From NCBI RefSeq assembly GCF_019880245.1, contig NZ_CP082289.1, forward strand, positions 1 to 64,000: a stretch of 64,000 bases of DNA, in the 5' to 3' direction. Positions 8,999-51,106 of the stretch are shown here, one piece after another (positions within the stretch are counted from its first letter, which is position 1; every line of letters starts with the position of its first letter). Below the pieces are notes generated by a model, which made no database searches, had not been told where the DNA came from, and saw only the letters and a program-made list of their open reading frames with translations. Both the position numbers and the translations under genes were made by a program. Source of the DNA: Halobaculum roseum. GTDB taxonomy: Archaea; Halobacteriota; Halobacteria; Halobacteriales; Haloferacaceae.

Positions 8999-10918
8999 TC
9001 AGTAGCGGAGCAGTCGCATCCCGTTGAGGATGACGAGGAGGACGCTGGCCTCGTGGACCAGCATTCCCGACGCGAGGGTGACGTAGCTGGTGAGCACGCC
9101 CGCGAGGAGGACGGTCACGGTCAGCACCGCGAGCCCGACGTTCTCGAGGACGTTCCAGCGCGTCGCCTTGCTGAGTTTGACCGCGTACGGGATGCGTTCG
9201 AGGTCGTCGGCCATCAACGCCATGTCAGCCGTTTCGATAGCGGTGTCCGTTCCCGCAGCACCCATCGCGATGCCGACATCGGCAGTGGCCAGCGATGGCG
9301 CGTCGTTGATGCCGTCGCCGACCATCGCGACGACGTGGCCGTCGGCCTGGTAGCCCTCGATGACGGACTGCTTGTCCTCGGGGAGGAGTTCGGCACGGTA
9401 CTCGTCGATACCGACCTCCTCGGCAACGGCAGCGGCCGTCCGCTCGTTGTCGCCGGTGAGCATCACCGTCTCGATGCCAGCGTCTTGGAGCGCCGCGACG
9501 ACCCCAGGAGCGGCCTCCCGGAGCTCGTCCCGCATCGCAATCGCGCCGATGATGTCCCCGTCCCGAACGACGTGGACGACTGTCTCGCCGCGCCCCTCAC
9601 GCTCGCGGACGTAGTCGGCGACCCGATCGGGGACATCGACGTCGCGGTCGTCCAGCAGCGCGCGGTTGCCGACGACGACTTCCTGGCCATCGGCATGGGC
9701 GATGACGCCCTTGCCGGCGACCACGTCGAAGTCGTCGGGATCGGGGACCGACCTGCGCCCCACGTCCGTATCGTCCGCTTGGGCGACCGTCGCTCCACCG
9801 TCCGTCGCAGCCGTCTGGCGTTCGCGGGCCATGTCGACGATGGCGTCCGCGAGGTGGTGTTCGCTCTTCTTCTCGGCGGTCGCTGCGAGCGAGAGGACGT
9901 CGGCGGCGGCGACGCCGAACCCCTCGATACCGGAGACGGTGGTCTCGCCCTTCGTGAGCGTCCCCGTCTTGTCGAAGGCGACGAGATCGATCTTGCCGGC
10001 GCGTTCGAGGTGTTCGCCGCCCTTCATCAGCACGCCCGACCGGGCGGCGTTACCGATGGCCGAGACGATGCTGACCGGTGGCCCGATGACCAGCGCGCCC
10101 GGACAGCCGATGACCAGCAGCGTCAGCGACAGGATCGCGTTCTGCGTGACCGCGTACGCGCCGATAGCCAGGGCAATGACGGCCGGCGTGTAGTACTTCG
10201 CGAACCGGTCGATGAGACTCTCCGTGGGCGACTGAGCCTCCTGGGCCTCCTCGACGCGACGGATGATCCGTTCGAGAGTCGTATCCGATCCCGCTCCCGT
10301 CGTCCGGATTTCTAGCGCGCCCTCCTGGTTGACCGTCCCGGCGTACACCTCGTCGCTGTCGGCCTTGTGGACGGGCGCGCTCTCGCCGGTGACCGGCGCC
10401 TGGTTGACTGCGCTCTCGCCGTCGACGACGGTTCCGTCGACCGGGATCTTCCCGCCCGGCTTTACGACGACGACTTCGCCCTCTTCGACATCGCGGGCGG
10501 AGACCTTTTGGAGTGTCCCGTCGCGACGGACGGTCGCCGTGTCGGGCGTCATCTCCAGTAGCTCCTGAAGTGCCGTCCGGGTCTTCCGCATCGTCCGGCC
10601 TTCGAGGTAGCTGCCAAGGCTGAACAGGAAGACGACGGCGGCGGCTTCCCAGTACTCCCCGATGACGATAGCACCGATGGCGGCCAGCGTCACCAGCGTC
10701 TTGATGCCGAGCGTCCGGTTGGTGACCTCGTGGTAAGCGGTCTTGGCGATGTCGTAGCCACCCACGACCGTCGCGAGGACGAGGATGGCGGCGCTTGCCA
10801 TCTCGAAACTCGTGAGGTAGCCGAGACTCCAGCCACCGCCGTACAGCAGGCCGCTTGTCGCCGTGACGATGGCCTTCCGGTGGTTCCGGTAGTACTGCGT
10901 GATCGATTGTTTGTTCAT
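8999..10918 (-). CDS. P1B-type heavy-metal ATPase with CPG motif
   Basis: 639 aa, a metal-exporting P-type ATPase without a fused HMA domain; the HMA is a separate gene just upstream. Actuator motif TGES (PVTGESAPV) and phosphorylation site DKTGT (Asp316) are present, as is MVGDGINDAP. Two key sites are altered. The transmembrane CPx motif is IGCPGALVIG (Cys272-Pro273-Gly274) instead of CPC, CPH or SPC. The nucleotide-domain SEHP motif is SEHH (His354-His355). About eight membrane segments are visible. The metal cannot be assigned from known classes. It forms an operon with genes on both sides. Confidence 0.88.
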   Translation of the reverse strand: MNKQSITQYYRNHRKAIVTATSGLLYGGGWSLGYLTSFEMASAAILVLATVVGGYDIAKTAYHEVTNRTLGIKTLVTLAAIGAIVIGEYWEAAAVVFLFSLGSYLEGRTMRKTRTALQELLEMTPDTATVRRDGTLQKVSARDVEEGEVVVVKPGGKIPVDGTVVDGESAVNQAPVTGESAPVHKADSDEVYAGTVNQEGALEIRTTGAGSDTTLERIIRRVEEAQEAQSPTESLIDRFAKYYTPAVIALAIGAYAVTQNAILSLTLLVIGCPGALVIGPPVSIVSAIGNAARSGVLMKGGEHLERAGKIDLVAFDKTGTLTKGETTVSGIEGFGVAAADVLSLAATAEKKSEHHLADAIVDMARERQTAATDGGATVAQADDTDVGRRSVPDPDDFDVVAGKGVIAHADGQEVVVGNRALLDDRDVDVPDRVADYVREREGRGETVVHVVRDGDIIGAIAMRDELREAAPGVVAALQDAGIETVMLTGDNERTAAAVAEEVGIDEYRAELLPEDKQSVIEGYQADGHVVAMVGDGINDAPSLATADVGIAMGAAGTDTAIETADMALMADDLERIPYAVKLSKATRWNVLENVGLAVLTVTVLLAGVLTSYVTLASGMLVHEASVLLVILNGMRLLRY

Positions 10919-21378: not shown

Positions 21379-21981
21379 CTAAGCATCAGATTTCTCTTGA
21401 CTTTCTGTATACTGTTCCCTATACGTTGTTTCACAGTTCTCACTGCAAAACTGCTGGAGTGAACCACCGACACGGGTGGCTAGTCCGTCTTCACCGACAG
21501 TGGTTCCGCAATTTGCACATTTGAGTGCGGATTCAGTCCCCTCGGCATACGCTGATTGAGCAGCGTTCGACAGCAGTTGTACGTCGTATCGCCGCACGTC
21601 AGTCAGTGGTAGATATTGCTGCGCCCAGTTTCCGACTGTATTCCGCGGCGGCGTCGCAACAGCTACGATTTCGCCCTCCGCAGTTGTGAATACGTGTTCT
21701 ACGGCTGGGGTCTCGAGGATCGATTCTCGAAGAGAATCCGTCTTTCCGAGCTCAGGCTGGAGGCGTACCATGACGTGTATCCGGTTTTCGTACTGTGTGA
21801 GGTCGAGATCAACGGTGAATCGACGAATGACATCTTCTTGCTCCAACTGACGGACGCGTGCTGAAACGGACGGGGGTGAAAGATTTACAGCCTCAGCAAT
21901 AGTGCTGTAGGGTCGTCTCGCGTTCTCCGCTAAAAGACGGAGGATTTCGCGATCCGTGTCGTCAAGTTCTGGTTGGGTCAT
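21379..21981 (-). CDS. Lrp/AsnC-family regulator with C-terminal TRASH domain (1)
   Basis: 200 aa. The N-terminal Lrp winged helix (DDTDREILRLLAENARRPYSTIAE, then LSPPSVSARVRQLEQEDVI) is followed by an effector-like domain and a C-terminal TRASH zinc/copper module (CANCG at about 155-158 and FCSENCETTY). In archaea Lrp-TRASH proteins act as copper-responsive regulators of CopA and chaperones. It is downstream of a small YHS-protein gene on the same strand. A paralogue lies at 38955. Confidence 0.88.
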   Translation of the reverse strand: MTQPELDDTDREILRLLAENARRPYSTIAEAVNLSPPSVSARVRQLEQEDVIRRFTVDLDLTQYENRIHVMVRLQPELGKTDSLRESILETPAVEHVFTTAEGEIVAVATPPRNTVGNWAQQYLPLTDVRRYDVQLLSNAAQSAYAEGTESALKCANCGTTVGEDGLATRVGGSLQQFCSENCETTYREQYTESQEKSDA

Positions 21982-38954: not shown

Positions 38955-39545
38955 TTACGCTCCCTCTTCGAGTCGCTGATACCGATCGTCGAACCGTGTG
39001 AGACAGGACGGACAACAGAAGTGATAGATCTCTCCGTCGATTCTCGTCGTTTCACCTTGATTATCAACGGTATTGTTACATTCAGCACAGGTGAGTGCAA
39101 ATTCGACGCCATCAACGGACGGCGTCCATTCAAGCTCGTCAATTAGTGTGACGGTGTAATCTGCTACATCGATCTCGTTAAAGAGTCCATCTACCCACTG
39201 ACGTACGTTCTGGGCTTCAACACGGGCATAGAACCAAAGATCTCCTTCGGAGGTCGTGAAGACGTGTTCAACGCCATCTGACTCTCGAGCCCGCTCGCGG
39301 GCGGCCTCCAACGACGCTGAGCCGATTTCGGCCTGAATAAATACCGGTACACCAGCTCGGAGATGAGCCCGGTTGACGTCAATCGTGAAGTTGTTAATGA
39401 TGCCAGCTTCCTGTAATCGCTTTACCCGGTCAGAAACGGCTGGCCCCGACAAGTCGACCTCCTCGCCAATATCGCTGAACGGGCGGCGGGCGTCATCAGC
39501 GAGTAACGAGAGGATTTCTAAGTCGGTTTCATCCAAATTGCGCAT
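38955..39545 (-). CDS. Lrp/AsnC-family regulator with TRASH domain (2), CopR-like
   Basis: 196 aa from the ATG at 39545. Lrp winged helix (DETDLEILSLLADDARRPFSDIGE, LSGPAVSDRVKRLQEAGII), middle effector-like domain, and a C-terminal TRASH module: LTCAECNNTVDNQ and YHFCCPSCLTRFDDRY. It lies between copA and the CopZ-like gene, with matching palindromes on both sides, so it is the probable copper-responsive regulator of both. It shares its domain order with the protein at 21379. Confidence 0.9.
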   Translation of the reverse strand: MRNLDETDLEILSLLADDARRPFSDIGEEVDLSGPAVSDRVKRLQEAGIINNFTIDVNRAHLRAGVPVFIQAEIGSASLEAARERARESDGVEHVFTTSEGDLWFYARVEAQNVRQWVDGLFNEIDVADYTVTLIDELEWTPSVDGVEFALTCAECNNTVDNQGETTRIDGEIYHFCCPSCLTRFDDRYQRLEEGA

Positions 39546-39625
39546 ACGACCGCTTCGTCTCGCAGGATACATTATTGTTGCCCACAACACACCTTCGAAA
39601 TCGGTGATCTAGGGCTGCGACAACA

Positions 39626-46723: not shown

Positions 46724-47071
46724 ATGGCTCTGACCCAGATCGACCACGTAGGCGAGAACGAACAAATGGCTGAATGTATCGATAACTGTCTCGCAGCGGC
46801 CCAAGCATGCGAGTGGTGCGCTGATGAGTGTCTCGGTGACGAGGAGATGGAAGAGTGTGCCCGTCTCTGTCGAGACGTCGCTGATCTCACTACGCTGCAC
46901 GCGCGCTTCATGGCACGGGACTCGAACTACAGTCCGCAGCTCGCCCAGGCCTGTGCCGGGGCCTGTGAAGAATGTGCTGAGGAATGTGAGCGTCACGATG
47001 CAGAACACTGTCAGGTCTGTGCTGAGGTACTCCGCGACTGTGCGGAGACCTGCCGCGAGATGGCTTCATAA
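46724..47071 (+). CDS. Cys-rich four-helix protein, copper-storage (Csp/DUF326)-like
   Basis: 115 aa with 15 cysteines arranged along predicted helices: MAECIDNCLAAAQACEWCADEC, MEECARLCRD, QACAGACEECAEECERH and HCQVCAEVLRDCAETC. CxxxC and CxxC spacing on one face of a four-helix bundle is the pattern of cytosolic Csp copper-storage proteins and DUF326. No export signal is seen. It would bind many Cu+ ions per chain. Stands alone with its own upstream region in the copper island. Confidence 0.85.
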   Translation: MALTQIDHVGENEQMAECIDNCLAAAQACEWCADECLGDEEMEECARLCRDVADLTTLHARFMARDSNYSPQLAQACAGACEECAEECERHDAEHCQVCAEVLRDCAETCREMAS

Positions 47072-47114: not shown

Positions 47115-47492
47115 ATGGATACACCAACGAAGTCTATTACAGTCTTCACCGGGGCCCTCGGGATCTGGCTCATGGCTTTCCCGTTCATAGTGGGCTCACC
47201 GTCTCCTGCCAAGTGGAACGACGTAGTTGTAGGTGGAATGATCGCCACATTAGCAGGGTATAATTACTCACGTGAGCGAATACAGGGTGGACCCAGCAAG
47301 GGAATTTCTGGGATACTCGTGCTGCTTGGCGGGTGGCTTCTGTTTGCCCCGTTTGTCACCGGAGTCACTGGAGGTCTTCTTTGGAATGACGTGGCTGTCG
47401 GCGTTCTAGTGACCGCGTTTGCAGGATACAACGTGTACGTAGCCCCGTCTGAAGAACAGACGGTTACTCATACGCCAACCAATGATACCTGA
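47115..47492 (+). CDS. SPW-repeat membrane protein
   Basis: 125 aa with four membrane helices in two similar halves. Each half has a helix and then a (S)PxxWND motif (SPSPAKWNDVVVG, then GGLLWNDVAVG), typical of SPW repeats. Function of the family is unknown. It lies just before the paired surface proteins. Confidence 0.75.
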   Translation: MDTPTKSITVFTGALGIWLMAFPFIVGSPSPAKWNDVVVGGMIATLAGYNYSRERIQGGPSKGISGILVLLGGWLLFAPFVTGVTGGLLWNDVAVGVLVTAFAGYNVYVAPSEEQTVTHTPTNDT

Positions 47493-47583: not shown

Positions 47584-49371
47584 ATGGATATCTGGAAATT
47601 GGTAGCGATGGGTGTCGCTGCCATTGTCGCGATTCTCGTCGCTACACAACCGGTCTTCGTCGTCGGGCTGACGTTGTTCGACTACGGGCAGGCACCGAGT
47701 GAATCGTACACCACGATGCAGACTAAGGACGTGAGCAGATTCCCTGTCAATGATCCACAGCGCCAGAGTGAACTCACTGCCCGGGCTGCACGGCCACCTG
47801 ACTCAGGTCTCAATTATTCAACTGTGGTTCGTGTTCCCGAGAACGACTGGCAGACGGCTATGGCGGCATCTCGACTACGGGCGAGCGAAGACGCTCTTCT
47901 CCTCTTCGGGAACGCCACTCCCCCCAGTAGCGCAAATGGAACGAACACGTCCAGCGTCTCTACTGTTGACATCTCTGGTGGAAACCCCGCTGAGACAGCC
48001 GCTTCTATCGCCACCCGTGGGAACGGATCTGACGACATCAGTCAGAACAACGTCATCATTGTGAACTCTGACGAGCCACAGTGGGCACTGCCCGCTGCCG
48101 CCTGGAGCGCCTACTCTGGTGACCCAATTCTATACGCGAACGAAGACGGAGTCCCAGATGCCACCCAAGAGGCAATTGAGGAACTGAACGCCTCACACGC
48201 CTATGTCCTCGCACCGCCCGGCCTCGTGAGTGACGAAGCGCTCTCTGACCTCAACGTCGAGTGGACACGAGTTTCAGGGGACACCCCACAGGACCACGCC
48301 ATCGAGGTGGCAGAGTTCCGTGATGAGTCGCGAGACTTTGGCTGGGGAATCCATGAACGTGATAAAGTCGGTTACTACAACTTTATGCTCGTCAATCCCA
48401 GTGAGCCCGAGCACGCAGTCTCGTCGACAAATCTTCAGTGGGGGAAAGCTGGCCCAATCCTACTCGTCAACGATGACGGGAGCCTGCCAGCGGTAACTGA
48501 AAACTACGCGTGGCAGTCACAGCCGGCCTGGTTCTCGACCCCCGCAGAAGGGCCGTTTAACCACCTCTTCGCAATGGGGTCGACGGATCAGGTTTCCTGG
48601 GTGTCCCAGGGCCGGCTCGATTACGCGGTTGAGATCACGCAGTACCGCCATCAGGGGGCCGGCCTCAGTCCGCTAGAATCGCTCGCTGCGATCTGGGCCG
48701 GGTTCAGTATCCTCGGGGCGTCGTTTGTGTTCGCCCATGCACGTCACCGGCTACCTGAGATGAACGACTGGACGACGATGGTCTGGCCGCTGCTAACCCT
48801 TGTCCTTGGCCCATTTGGGCTGGCCCTCTACTGGCTCTCCTACAGGGGAAGACAGATCGTTACAACTGATCAGGGACCACGCGTCCTCCGCCCGTACTGG
48901 CTTCGAGCAGCCACAGCGACTGCAATGGGCGTTGGCTTTGCTGCAAGTACGATGATCGCGACGGGGTTCCTCCTCAACTACTTCGGCATACCGATGATCG
49001 TCCTCGACGGGCCACTATTCTGGCTCGGGAACGCGATGACGATCCTCATCGTGCTCGTGTACGTCATTGCGTTCCTCGTATCGTGGCTCGTCTTCCACAT
49101 CCCGATGCTAAAGGACTCACAAGGGCTCGATACCGGATCGGCAGCGAGGAAAGGTGCGAAGATCGTCGCCGTGAGCATGACGAGTGTCTCTGTCGGAATG
49201 ATGGGCGGAATGTGGGTACTCATGATGCTCAACCTACCAATGATGCCAGGAGACGACAACATCCTCTGGTTCGGCGTGATGGTGTTCGCTACGCTGGTCG
49301 GGTTCCTCATTGCTTGGCCAGTGAACGGACTGCTCGTTCGGAAAAACCTCAAACCGGGTGGTGCACTGTGA
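47584..49371 (+). CDS. Surface protein with cell-wall-binding-like repeats and DUF4396-like membrane part
   Basis: 595 aa. N-terminal membrane anchor (about 6-32), a large outer domain (about 40-345) resembling cell-wall-binding repeat 2 (ALPAAAWSAYSGDPILYAN, SHAYVLAPP), then five or so membrane helices. The helical part contains MVWPLLTLVLGPFGLALYW, similar to DUF4396 proteins seen in copper clusters, and a Met-rich helix GMMGGMWVLMMLNLPMMPG. Its stop overlaps the next gene. The joined architecture is unusual; function unknown. Confidence 0.7.
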   Translation: MDIWKLVAMGVAAIVAILVATQPVFVVGLTLFDYGQAPSESYTTMQTKDVSRFPVNDPQRQSELTARAARPPDSGLNYSTVVRVPENDWQTAMAASRLRASEDALLLFGNATPPSSANGTNTSSVSTVDISGGNPAETAASIATRGNGSDDISQNNVIIVNSDEPQWALPAAAWSAYSGDPILYANEDGVPDATQEAIEELNASHAYVLAPPGLVSDEALSDLNVEWTRVSGDTPQDHAIEVAEFRDESRDFGWGIHERDKVGYYNFMLVNPSEPEHAVSSTNLQWGKAGPILLVNDDGSLPAVTENYAWQSQPAWFSTPAEGPFNHLFAMGSTDQVSWVSQGRLDYAVEITQYRHQGAGLSPLESLAAIWAGFSILGASFVFAHARHRLPEMNDWTTMVWPLLTLVLGPFGLALYWLSYRGRQIVTTDQGPRVLRPYWLRAATATAMGVGFAASTMIATGFLLNYFGIPMIVLDGPLFWLGNAMTILIVLVYVIAFLVSWLVFHIPMLKDSQGLDTGSAARKGAKIVAVSMTSVSVGMMGGMWVLMMLNLPMMPGDDNILWFGVMVFATLVGFLIAWPVNGLLVRKNLKPGGAL

Positions 49372-50603
49372 GCGACCGTAGTCGCCGGACGTTCCTGCGC
49401 GATCTCGCCGCGCTACCAGTTGGAGCAACTCTTGGGGGTGCCGCACTCACGTATCGGGAAGTCCGGTCCTCAGGCGAGCGTAGCCAGGGCGGACCCGCGT
49501 CGGCTGACTTCGACGAGGAGACCGTCACGAGCATGACGACCCGTCTCGCCGGGAGTAACGACTACGAGACGGCGACAGCGTTCACACAGAACGTCTATCC
49601 CGCCATTAACGATCACACCCGACCGGGGGCAGCGATTCTCATCAGCGACAGCGATCTCGCTGCAGCACTTCCCGGCGTGGCGTTCATCCATCACCCTATC
49701 GACGGTGCGGTCCTCCTGACGGAGCCGGACTCCTTGCCGGAGGTAACGCGCGAGGAGATCGAGCGCCTCCACCCGGAAGGCGTTCACGTCGACGGAAACA
49801 TGCAGGTGTACATCGTCGGGGGCGAGCGCTACATCAGCAGTGACGTTCAGCGGACCGTCGAACAGATGGGGCTGAAGACCAGACGTATTGAGGGAGACAC
49901 ACCGATCGAAGTCGCGGCCAATGCAGATCAGTACCTCAGTACGATTCACGCCAACCACCGGGACACCACGTTTATCGCCGATCTCGACGATCTCCAGACC
50001 GCCATCCCGGCGCAGTCCTGGAACGCTCACGGCGGTGACGGCTTCCTCTACATTGACGGGAACCGCATCCCCGAGGCAACCCAGGAACAGCTTGAAGCCC
50101 GCTTCGACGAGGCATACATGTACCTCCTCGGCGACGAGAGCAAGATCAGCGAACAGGTCGCTCGCGACCTCGCACGTTTCGGCCACGTACAGCGAATCCC
50201 GAGGGGATCTGATCCGTACGAACTAAGCGTCGGCTTCGCCGGGTACAAGGACATCGGACGGAATCAGGGGTGGATCTTCGGCGAGTGGCCCCGTAACATT
50301 GGTTGGGGGATCGCTGAAAGCGGTCACAACTTTATCTTTGCGAACCCTGACAACTGGCAGACGGCACTCCCGGCGTGCGTCGAAAGTCATCGCGGGAAAC
50401 ACGGACCAATGCTCCACGTCGAGCAGGATACAGTACCAGACGCCGTTGAGAACTATCTCACAAACCTCACTCGGCCACACGAGTCCGCGCCGTATGACAG
50501 GAAGTACAATCACGGATGGATCGTTGGGGACACAGATCAGATTAGTCAACGAGTCCAAGCCCAGCTCCATGCAATGCTCCAAGAACCACGAGGTGACCAA
50601 TGA
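49368..50603 (+). CDS. Tat-exported protein with cell-wall-binding-like repeats
   Basis: 411 aa starting with GTG at 49368, overlapping the previous stop (GTGA). Twin-arginine signal RSRRTFLRDLAALPVGATLGG. The outer part repeats the pattern of the upstream protein: FTQNVYPAINDHTRPGAAILIS, AALPGVAFIHHPIDGAVLL and IPAQSWNAHGGDGFLYIDG. The two proteins probably act together at the cell surface. It overlaps the following gene by 4 nt. Confidence 0.75.
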   Translation: MSDRSRRTFLRDLAALPVGATLGGAALTYREVRSSGERSQGGPASADFDEETVTSMTTRLAGSNDYETATAFTQNVYPAINDHTRPGAAILISDSDLAAALPGVAFIHHPIDGAVLLTEPDSLPEVTREEIERLHPEGVHVDGNMQVYIVGGERYISSDVQRTVEQMGLKTRRIEGDTPIEVAANADQYLSTIHANHRDTTFIADLDDLQTAIPAQSWNAHGGDGFLYIDGNRIPEATQEQLEARFDEAYMYLLGDESKISEQVARDLARFGHVQRIPRGSDPYELSVGFAGYKDIGRNQGWIFGEWPRNIGWGIAESGHNFIFANPDNWQTALPACVESHRGKHGPMLHVEQDTVPDAVENYLTNLTRPHESAPYDRKYNHGWIVGDTDQISQRVQAQLHAMLQEPRGDQ

Positions 50604-51106
50604 GACGAATCGTCGCCACATTCGATGATTCCGAGGAAACAACAGAGGCCAAGCAAGCACTCCGTGAAGCAGGCTTAGAACCCGATGAGCCGGATATCGA
50701 TAATCCCTTCTTCGATCCAGCCACAAAGATGCCAGAAAGACGGGGACTTCTTTGGGGTGGACTACTTGGTGGACTCATCGGTGCTGTACTGCTATTTATG
50801 ATGGATCAGAACATGTTCTGGATTCCCCGTATCAGCCCAATTATGACCGCTGGCCAGTACATGCTTATCCTCCTCGGGTTCGGGCTCGGTGCCGCAATCG
50901 GTGGATTTCTTGGGGGTGTAGTAGGCACGTCTCGCCAGGTTACTGCACTGGATCAACCGAGAGTCGCTGTCATGGTCCCGGATAATCGCGTGGGTGAAAC
51001 GGAGGATCTCCTCCGGGATCAGGGTGCGACAGCAGTCGACGGTACCGTCACCCACCACGAGCATCCCCAGCAAACACAGGCAAAATCAAGTACCTCTACT
51101 GACTGA
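50600..51106 (+). CDS. Membrane protein with glycine-zipper helices
   Basis: 168 aa. Short N-terminal domain (MRRIVATFDDSEETTEAKQALREAG), two Gly-rich membrane helices (about 49-69 and 85-108), then a soluble repeat-like C-terminus (VAVMVPDNRVGETEDLLRDQGAT) that resembles the N-terminus and a His-rich tail THHEHP. Resembles general-stress membrane proteins of the heat-induced 17M type. Third gene of the operon with the two surface proteins. Confidence 0.65.
   Translation: MRRIVATFDDSEETTEAKQALREAGLEPDEPDIDNPFFDPATKMPERRGLLWGGLLGGLIGAVLLFMMDQNMFWIPRISPIMTAGQYMLILLGFGLGAAIGGFLGGVVGTSRQVTALDQPRVAVMVPDNRVGETEDLLRDQGATAVDGTVTHHEHPQQTQAKSSTSTD

Follow-up and report, generated by a model that had tools for sequence, protein, structure and literature searches.

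The CWB2 fold is known for anchoring proteins to bacterial cell walls, and 'cell wall binding' is the annotation that CWB2 receives everywhere; haloarchaea are without such a wall. The closest described systems are the C. difficile proteins Cwp6, Cwp8 and SlpA-HMW (5j72, 5j6q and 7acy), in which three CWB2 repeats form a strand-swapped trefoil for which binding of PSII has been shown (PMC4973711). The membrane family DUF4396 has been given one passing mention, in a metal island (PMC7760498), and our search of the literature on DUF4396, on haloarchaeal CWB2 repeats and on CWB2 together with copper returned no function and no experiment on a member.

The window (the whole 64,000-nucleotide stretch of Halobaculum roseum DNA analysed here) encodes a real, conserved cross-domain module built from these two known families. 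It comprises three genes on the forward strand, P1 (47584..49371, 595 aa), P2 (49368..50603, 411 aa, GTG start) and P3 (50600..51106, 168 aa), with a 4-bp overlap at both the P1/P2 and the P2/P3 junction. The P1 ectodomain and P2 are related: an alignment of 237 aa, with 28.7% identical residues, had an E value of about 1e-20. An earlier note on this DNA had described an overlapping gene pair with related outer domains, and the coordinates, overlaps and homology all agree with that description. Upstream on the same strand lies a gene for a Csp-like copper-storage protein (46724..47071), a Cys-rich four-helix protein of the DUF326 type with 15 Cys (PF03860, 37.2 bits; weak match to TIGR04401, Csp1), which probably belongs to the same transcription unit as P1-P2-P3. 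Between this gene and P1, an SPW-repeat membrane protein is encoded (47115..47492, forward strand; PF03779, 60.3 bits). Along 17,233 bp the window matches scaffold 12 of Haloarcula amylovorans LR21 at 100% identity, and the locus on that scaffold (L046) was taken as the window's own sequence and left out.

The CWB2 repeats proposed earlier for both outer domains were backed by profile comparison, as PF04122 matched P2 with 48.4 bits and P1 with 36.7 bits (cut-off 24.9), as well as 40 of 45 P2 relatives. AlphaFold models, built with relatives from public genomes, reached a mean pLDDT of 86.2 and a pTM of 0.83 for P2, and 79.6 and 0.55, respectively, for P1. When the P2 model was compared to the PDB using Foldseek, each of the best 11 matches was to a CWB2 protein of C. 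difficile, with E values from 2e-17 to 2e-13, and the next match followed only at E 0.04. Using VIA-align, P2 was superimposed on Cwp6 (5j72) with Z 37.0 and an rmsd of 2.2 over 310 residues, and the P1 ectodomain with Z 27.7 over 273 residues; Z values against Cwp6, Cwp8 and SlpA-HMW lay at 25-37. Because of these scores, P1 and P2 are each predicted to carry a complete triple-repeat strand-swapped CWB2 trefoil, and the structure prediction suggested in the earlier note as a check thus came out in favour of its assignment. Each repeat of the P2 model consists of four strands and four helices, and the first strand completes repeat 3. The N terminus of P2 contains an RRxFL twin-arginine motif (SRRTFL) that is kept in the haloarchaeal orthologues, consistent with the export by Tat that had been suggested from the sequence, and the match to TIGR01409 was under the cut-off (13.5 vs 16.7 bits). 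The export route differs between lineages, being twin-arginine-like in haloarchaea, by an N-terminal hydrophobic segment in Clostridia, and lipoprotein-type in Bacteroidota and Bacilli.

P2 carries a set of strongly conserved histidines. Among the 45 relatives, His108 and His221 were conserved in 96% and 98%, respectively, and His320, His341 and His345 in 100%, together with Trp218 (98%) and Trp313 (100%), whereas most other histidines were far less conserved. Judged by the order of strands and helices, the P2 helices 97-107, 209-222 and 330-340 correspond to alpha-3H, 7H and 11H in SlpA numbering, the helices that constitute the core bundle (PMC8881574). In the model, each of these three core helices has a histidine at its C-terminal end or no more than one residue away (His108, His221 and His341, respectively), and nearby loops that lead from helix to strand on this side hold His345 and His320, a topology that suggests a clustering of the five histidines in space. 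In PDB alignments covering only repeats 1-2, neither Cwp6 nor SlpA has a histidine at the positions of His108 and His221. According to the alignment, the P1 ectodomain has Tyr177 at the position of His221, and Gln285 and Ala289 at those of His341 and His345.

P1 consists of one N-terminal transmembrane helix, the triple-CWB2 ectodomain (residues ~46-355) and a DUF4396-family membrane domain (residues 363-595), which was matched by PF14342 with 72.3 bits (cut-off 27) at residues 439-590; the same profile matched 21 of 21 P1 proteins at E 0.001 or better. In contrast to the C. difficile proteins, the trefoil is thus fused to a membrane domain, and neither P1 nor P2 contains a cell-wall effector domain. 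The membrane part holds 16 Met among 233 residues which, together with the profile score, agrees with the Met-rich, multi-helix DUF4396-like part previously described as tied to one of the outer domains. When the P1 model was used for a structure search, the ectodomain alone matched well, and the membrane domain, modelled as part of the whole protein, gave no clear match. Across 21 proteins from six phyla, Met457, Met485, Met508, Met532, Met539, Met548, Met554 and His385 were conserved at approximately 90% or more. Conservation of at least 80% was found for 8 of the 16 membrane-domain methionines, compared to 9 of 105 L/I/V/F/A residues (Fisher P 2e-4). Four stand-alone DUF4396 (PF14342) proteins were compared to P1, and all had a T/S-x-HC motif followed by Gly; P1 lacks this motif and instead has an SM(T)xxSxGMMxxMW...M motif with MMP. 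The CWB2 ectodomain is likewise a feature of P1 and not of the stand-alone proteins. P1 was on this basis taken as a distinct DUF4396 subfamily, an assignment that rests on the motif comparison with these four. Stand-alone members are also present in the metal island of a Hymenobacter plasmid, and a stand-alone protein with the HC motif is encoded on the organism's own chromosome (L017:7524-8411).

P3 is predicted to comprise an N-terminal soluble domain, a two-helix glycine-zipper hairpin and a C-terminal soluble domain. Its two helices are strongly hydrophobic and the glycine-zipper Pfam matches were below cut-off, in line with the glycine-zipper membrane protein that the third gene had been suggested to encode. 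P3 is homologous to the third gene of the clostridial loci (hhalign probability 98.9, E 2.8e-17), and in two Armatimonadota P1 has an N-terminal fusion to a P3-like segment (L094:5690-7864 and L059:5463-7853). The N-terminal half of P3 bears a weak likeness to ActD of alternative complex III, seen in 4 of 10 members scanned. An identity as an ActD subunit was rejected, as the score against PF11821 was under the Pfam cut-off (22.7 vs 25.7 bits) and there was no PDB profile match.

Of 391 haloarchaeal genomes, nine carry P1, with ten copies among them. P2 and P3 adjoin it in all ten tested, so the grouping is not due to chance. When 84,980 species genomes were scanned, 212 stretches were confirmed to encode P2 relatives, the best 80 of which were kept for the analysis of distribution. 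These best 80 came from haloarchaea, Clostridia, Chloroflexota, Acidobacteriota, Armatimonadota, Bacteroidota (Pontibacter, Salinimicrobium and Botryobacter) and many Paenibacillaceae. P1 is located directly upstream of P2 in 21 of 21 non-Bacilli bacterial loci examined, although in C. bovifaecis it is split over two frames and, for one locus in Armatimonadota, the position of P2 comes from tblastn only. In the Bacilli loci, P2 is found alone. The module is thus common to Bacteria and Archaea rather than specific to haloarchaea and, unlike the C. difficile trefoils, it has hosts among Gram-negative bacteria and among archaea that possess no wall of that kind.

The island in the window encodes, in addition to the module, a CopA-type ATPase, further P-type ATPases, an ArsP permease with a YHS domain, a DUF411 protein, cupredoxins and two AsnC-type regulators, each with a TRASH domain at its C terminus (21379-21981 and 38955-39590, both on the reverse strand). 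One of these two regulators adjoins a CopA-type ATPase. A heavy-metal P-type ATPase at 8999-10918 (reverse strand) has CPG (VIGCPGALVIG) in its membrane motif where CPC is usual, and a 99% identical gene is found near the module at another locus (L037). Of 11 haloarchaeal copies, 6 have the Csp gene immediately upstream (one of them frameshifted), the SPW gene recurs at its position in three other copies from haloarchaea, and the order Csp-SPW-P1-P2-P3 is kept in several haloarchaea. The proximity of the pair to copper genes, which the earlier note had proposed to look for, was evident in this group: 9 of 10 haloarchaeal copies have a gene for a metal P-type ATPase or for Csp within 10 kb (0.6 expected), and 5 of 10 have one for Csp within 3.5 kb (0.04 expected). 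The expectations were calculated from gene counts under uniform placement, and the nominal P near 1e-10 ignores the clustering of metal genes. Among Bacteroidota, a Pontibacter plasmid copy has genes for two four-helix copper proteins and for a multicopper oxidase nearby. On the OF4 plasmid of A. pseudofirmus, copZ, copA and P2 follow one another, and among 61 Bacilli loci 52 have a two-component system alongside P2 and 25 have copper-type genes within 8 kb, with no peak next to P2. The scanned neighbourhoods in Clostridia, Chloroflexota and Armatimonadota showed no enrichment of copper families; the commonest neighbour family of the clostridial and other non-Bacilli copies was DUF1657 (L049-L059), with a Mn catalase at one locus. 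The copper linkage is thus strong in haloarchaea, partial in Bacilli and Bacteroidota, and absent in Clostridia, and a universal association with copper was rejected on the basis of the clostridial and other bacterial neighbourhoods.

Because of the residue pattern and the haloarchaeal linkage, we favour the reading that P1-P2-P3 constitutes an envelope module for binding and transfer of a metal, most likely copper, although our confidence in it falls slightly short of even. The CWB2 trefoil would here have lost its wall-anchoring role. P2 would be an exported trefoil whose conserved histidines at the core-helix ends form a metal site near the pseudo-threefold axis, most likely occupied by copper. 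P1 would be a paralogous trefoil devoid of these histidines and mounted on the multi-pass DUF4396 membrane domain, where the conserved methionines would be apt to hold Cu(I) or pass it on, and P3 may be a small membrane partner of P1. Having bound copper outside the membrane, P2 could dock on the P1 ectodomain, and P1 could then store, relay or move the metal beside the Csp copper store and the CopA-type pumps. As the clostridial copies have no copper neighbours, the role in copper is one that we infer, and the accumulation of unrelated genes in metal islands was also counted against it. Held more tentatively is the wider proposal that the CWB2 trefoil, given a histidine site on the pseudo-threefold axis, has become a metal-binding scaffold and that, together with a methionine-lined DUF4396 domain, it makes up a new envelope copper-handling system of Bacteria and Archaea. 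The module would be a first pointer to a function of DUF4396 and would place an envelope module common to Bacteria and haloarchaea within metal-resistance islands. The five P2 histidines, and the seven methionines and one histidine of P1, are candidate ligands for single mutants.

The main rival, which we consider unlikely but deserving of attention, is a general envelope-stress or membrane-protection module without metal specificity, in which the ligand of P2 would be a component of the envelope or membrane, P1 and P3 would shape or protect the membrane, and copper islands would carry the module because copper damages envelopes. This would agree with the clostridial copies near DUF1657 genes and, at one locus, the Mn catalase, with a Pontibacter copy near a Mn catalase and DsbA, and with the two-component system accompanying P2 in Paenibacillus. 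Beta-propeller-type secreted proteins encoded upstream of the module or of P2 (e.g. L060:1712-3334 and L091:6950-7864) also fit; they are DUF7133-like at 10 loci (Bacteroidota and Sporomusa) and BNR-like at 11 loci (Paenibacillus). However, such a function leaves unexplained the five near-invariant histidines of P2, the Met-specific conservation in P1 and the Csp gene directly upstream in more than half of the haloarchaeal copies.

It is rather improbable that P2 is instead a metalloenzyme, i.e. a His-dependent enzyme (hydrolase or oxidoreductase) with a substrate outside the cytoplasm, for which P1 would be the receptor or transporter in the membrane. The divergent third repeat does contain the invariant residues His320, His341, His345, Lys344, Asp295 and Trp313, but the only high Foldseek and VIA-align scores were against CWB2 proteins that are known to serve as wall anchors, and the putative hydrolase 3sgg, at Z 6.6, was in the noise range.

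Still less probable is the canonical CWB2 role, in which P1 and P2 would anchor to a host surface polymer or S-layer glycan. The complete trefoil follows the same plan as Cwp6, Cwp8 and SlpA, and the earlier note had left open a role on the S-layer. However, PF04122 was matched in only 8 of 292 haloarchaeal genomes, always inside module genes, which makes a general S-layer anchor unlikely, and such an anchor was rejected as a general haloarchaeal function. A control search of Haloferax volcanii gave no PF04122 match. The same pair is present, as a lipoprotein type, in Gram-negative Bacteroidota, and the haloarchaeal hosts lack a wall of this kind. Furthermore, P1 is membrane-embedded and would not need an anchor, and bacterial P2s have a lipobox or an N-terminal hydrophobic segment. 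The few haloarchaea concerned, the Gram-negative occurrence and the membrane tethering together weaken the wall-anchor reading, and the name 'cell wall binding', which these genes inherit even in organisms without such a wall, is probably wrong for this large CWB2 subfamily (212 confirmed loci in one scan). Finally, a passenger of unrelated function, repeatedly carried on metal-resistance plasmids, would suit the patchy haloarchaeal distribution and the several copies on plasmids or small contigs, but is very improbable given the Csp-SPW-P1-P2-P3 order kept in several haloarchaea and the copies on chromosome-sized contigs in two haloarchaea, which are also beside metal ATPases.

In a midpoint-rooted tree, the haloarchaeal P2 sequences formed one clade among bacterial sequences (support 100/100), consistent with a single acquisition of P2 by haloarchaea. 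The transfer was probably from bacteria, a direction that depends on the midpoint-drawn root. Two module copies were found on two contigs of one haloarchaeal genome (G283; L034 and L036), and the Pontibacter actiniarum plasmid also carries two (L039 and L045). A fragment near an intact module (L014, G016:C7:41210-41488), 68% identical to residues 161-253 of P1 and interrupted by an internal stop, is apparently a decayed second copy.
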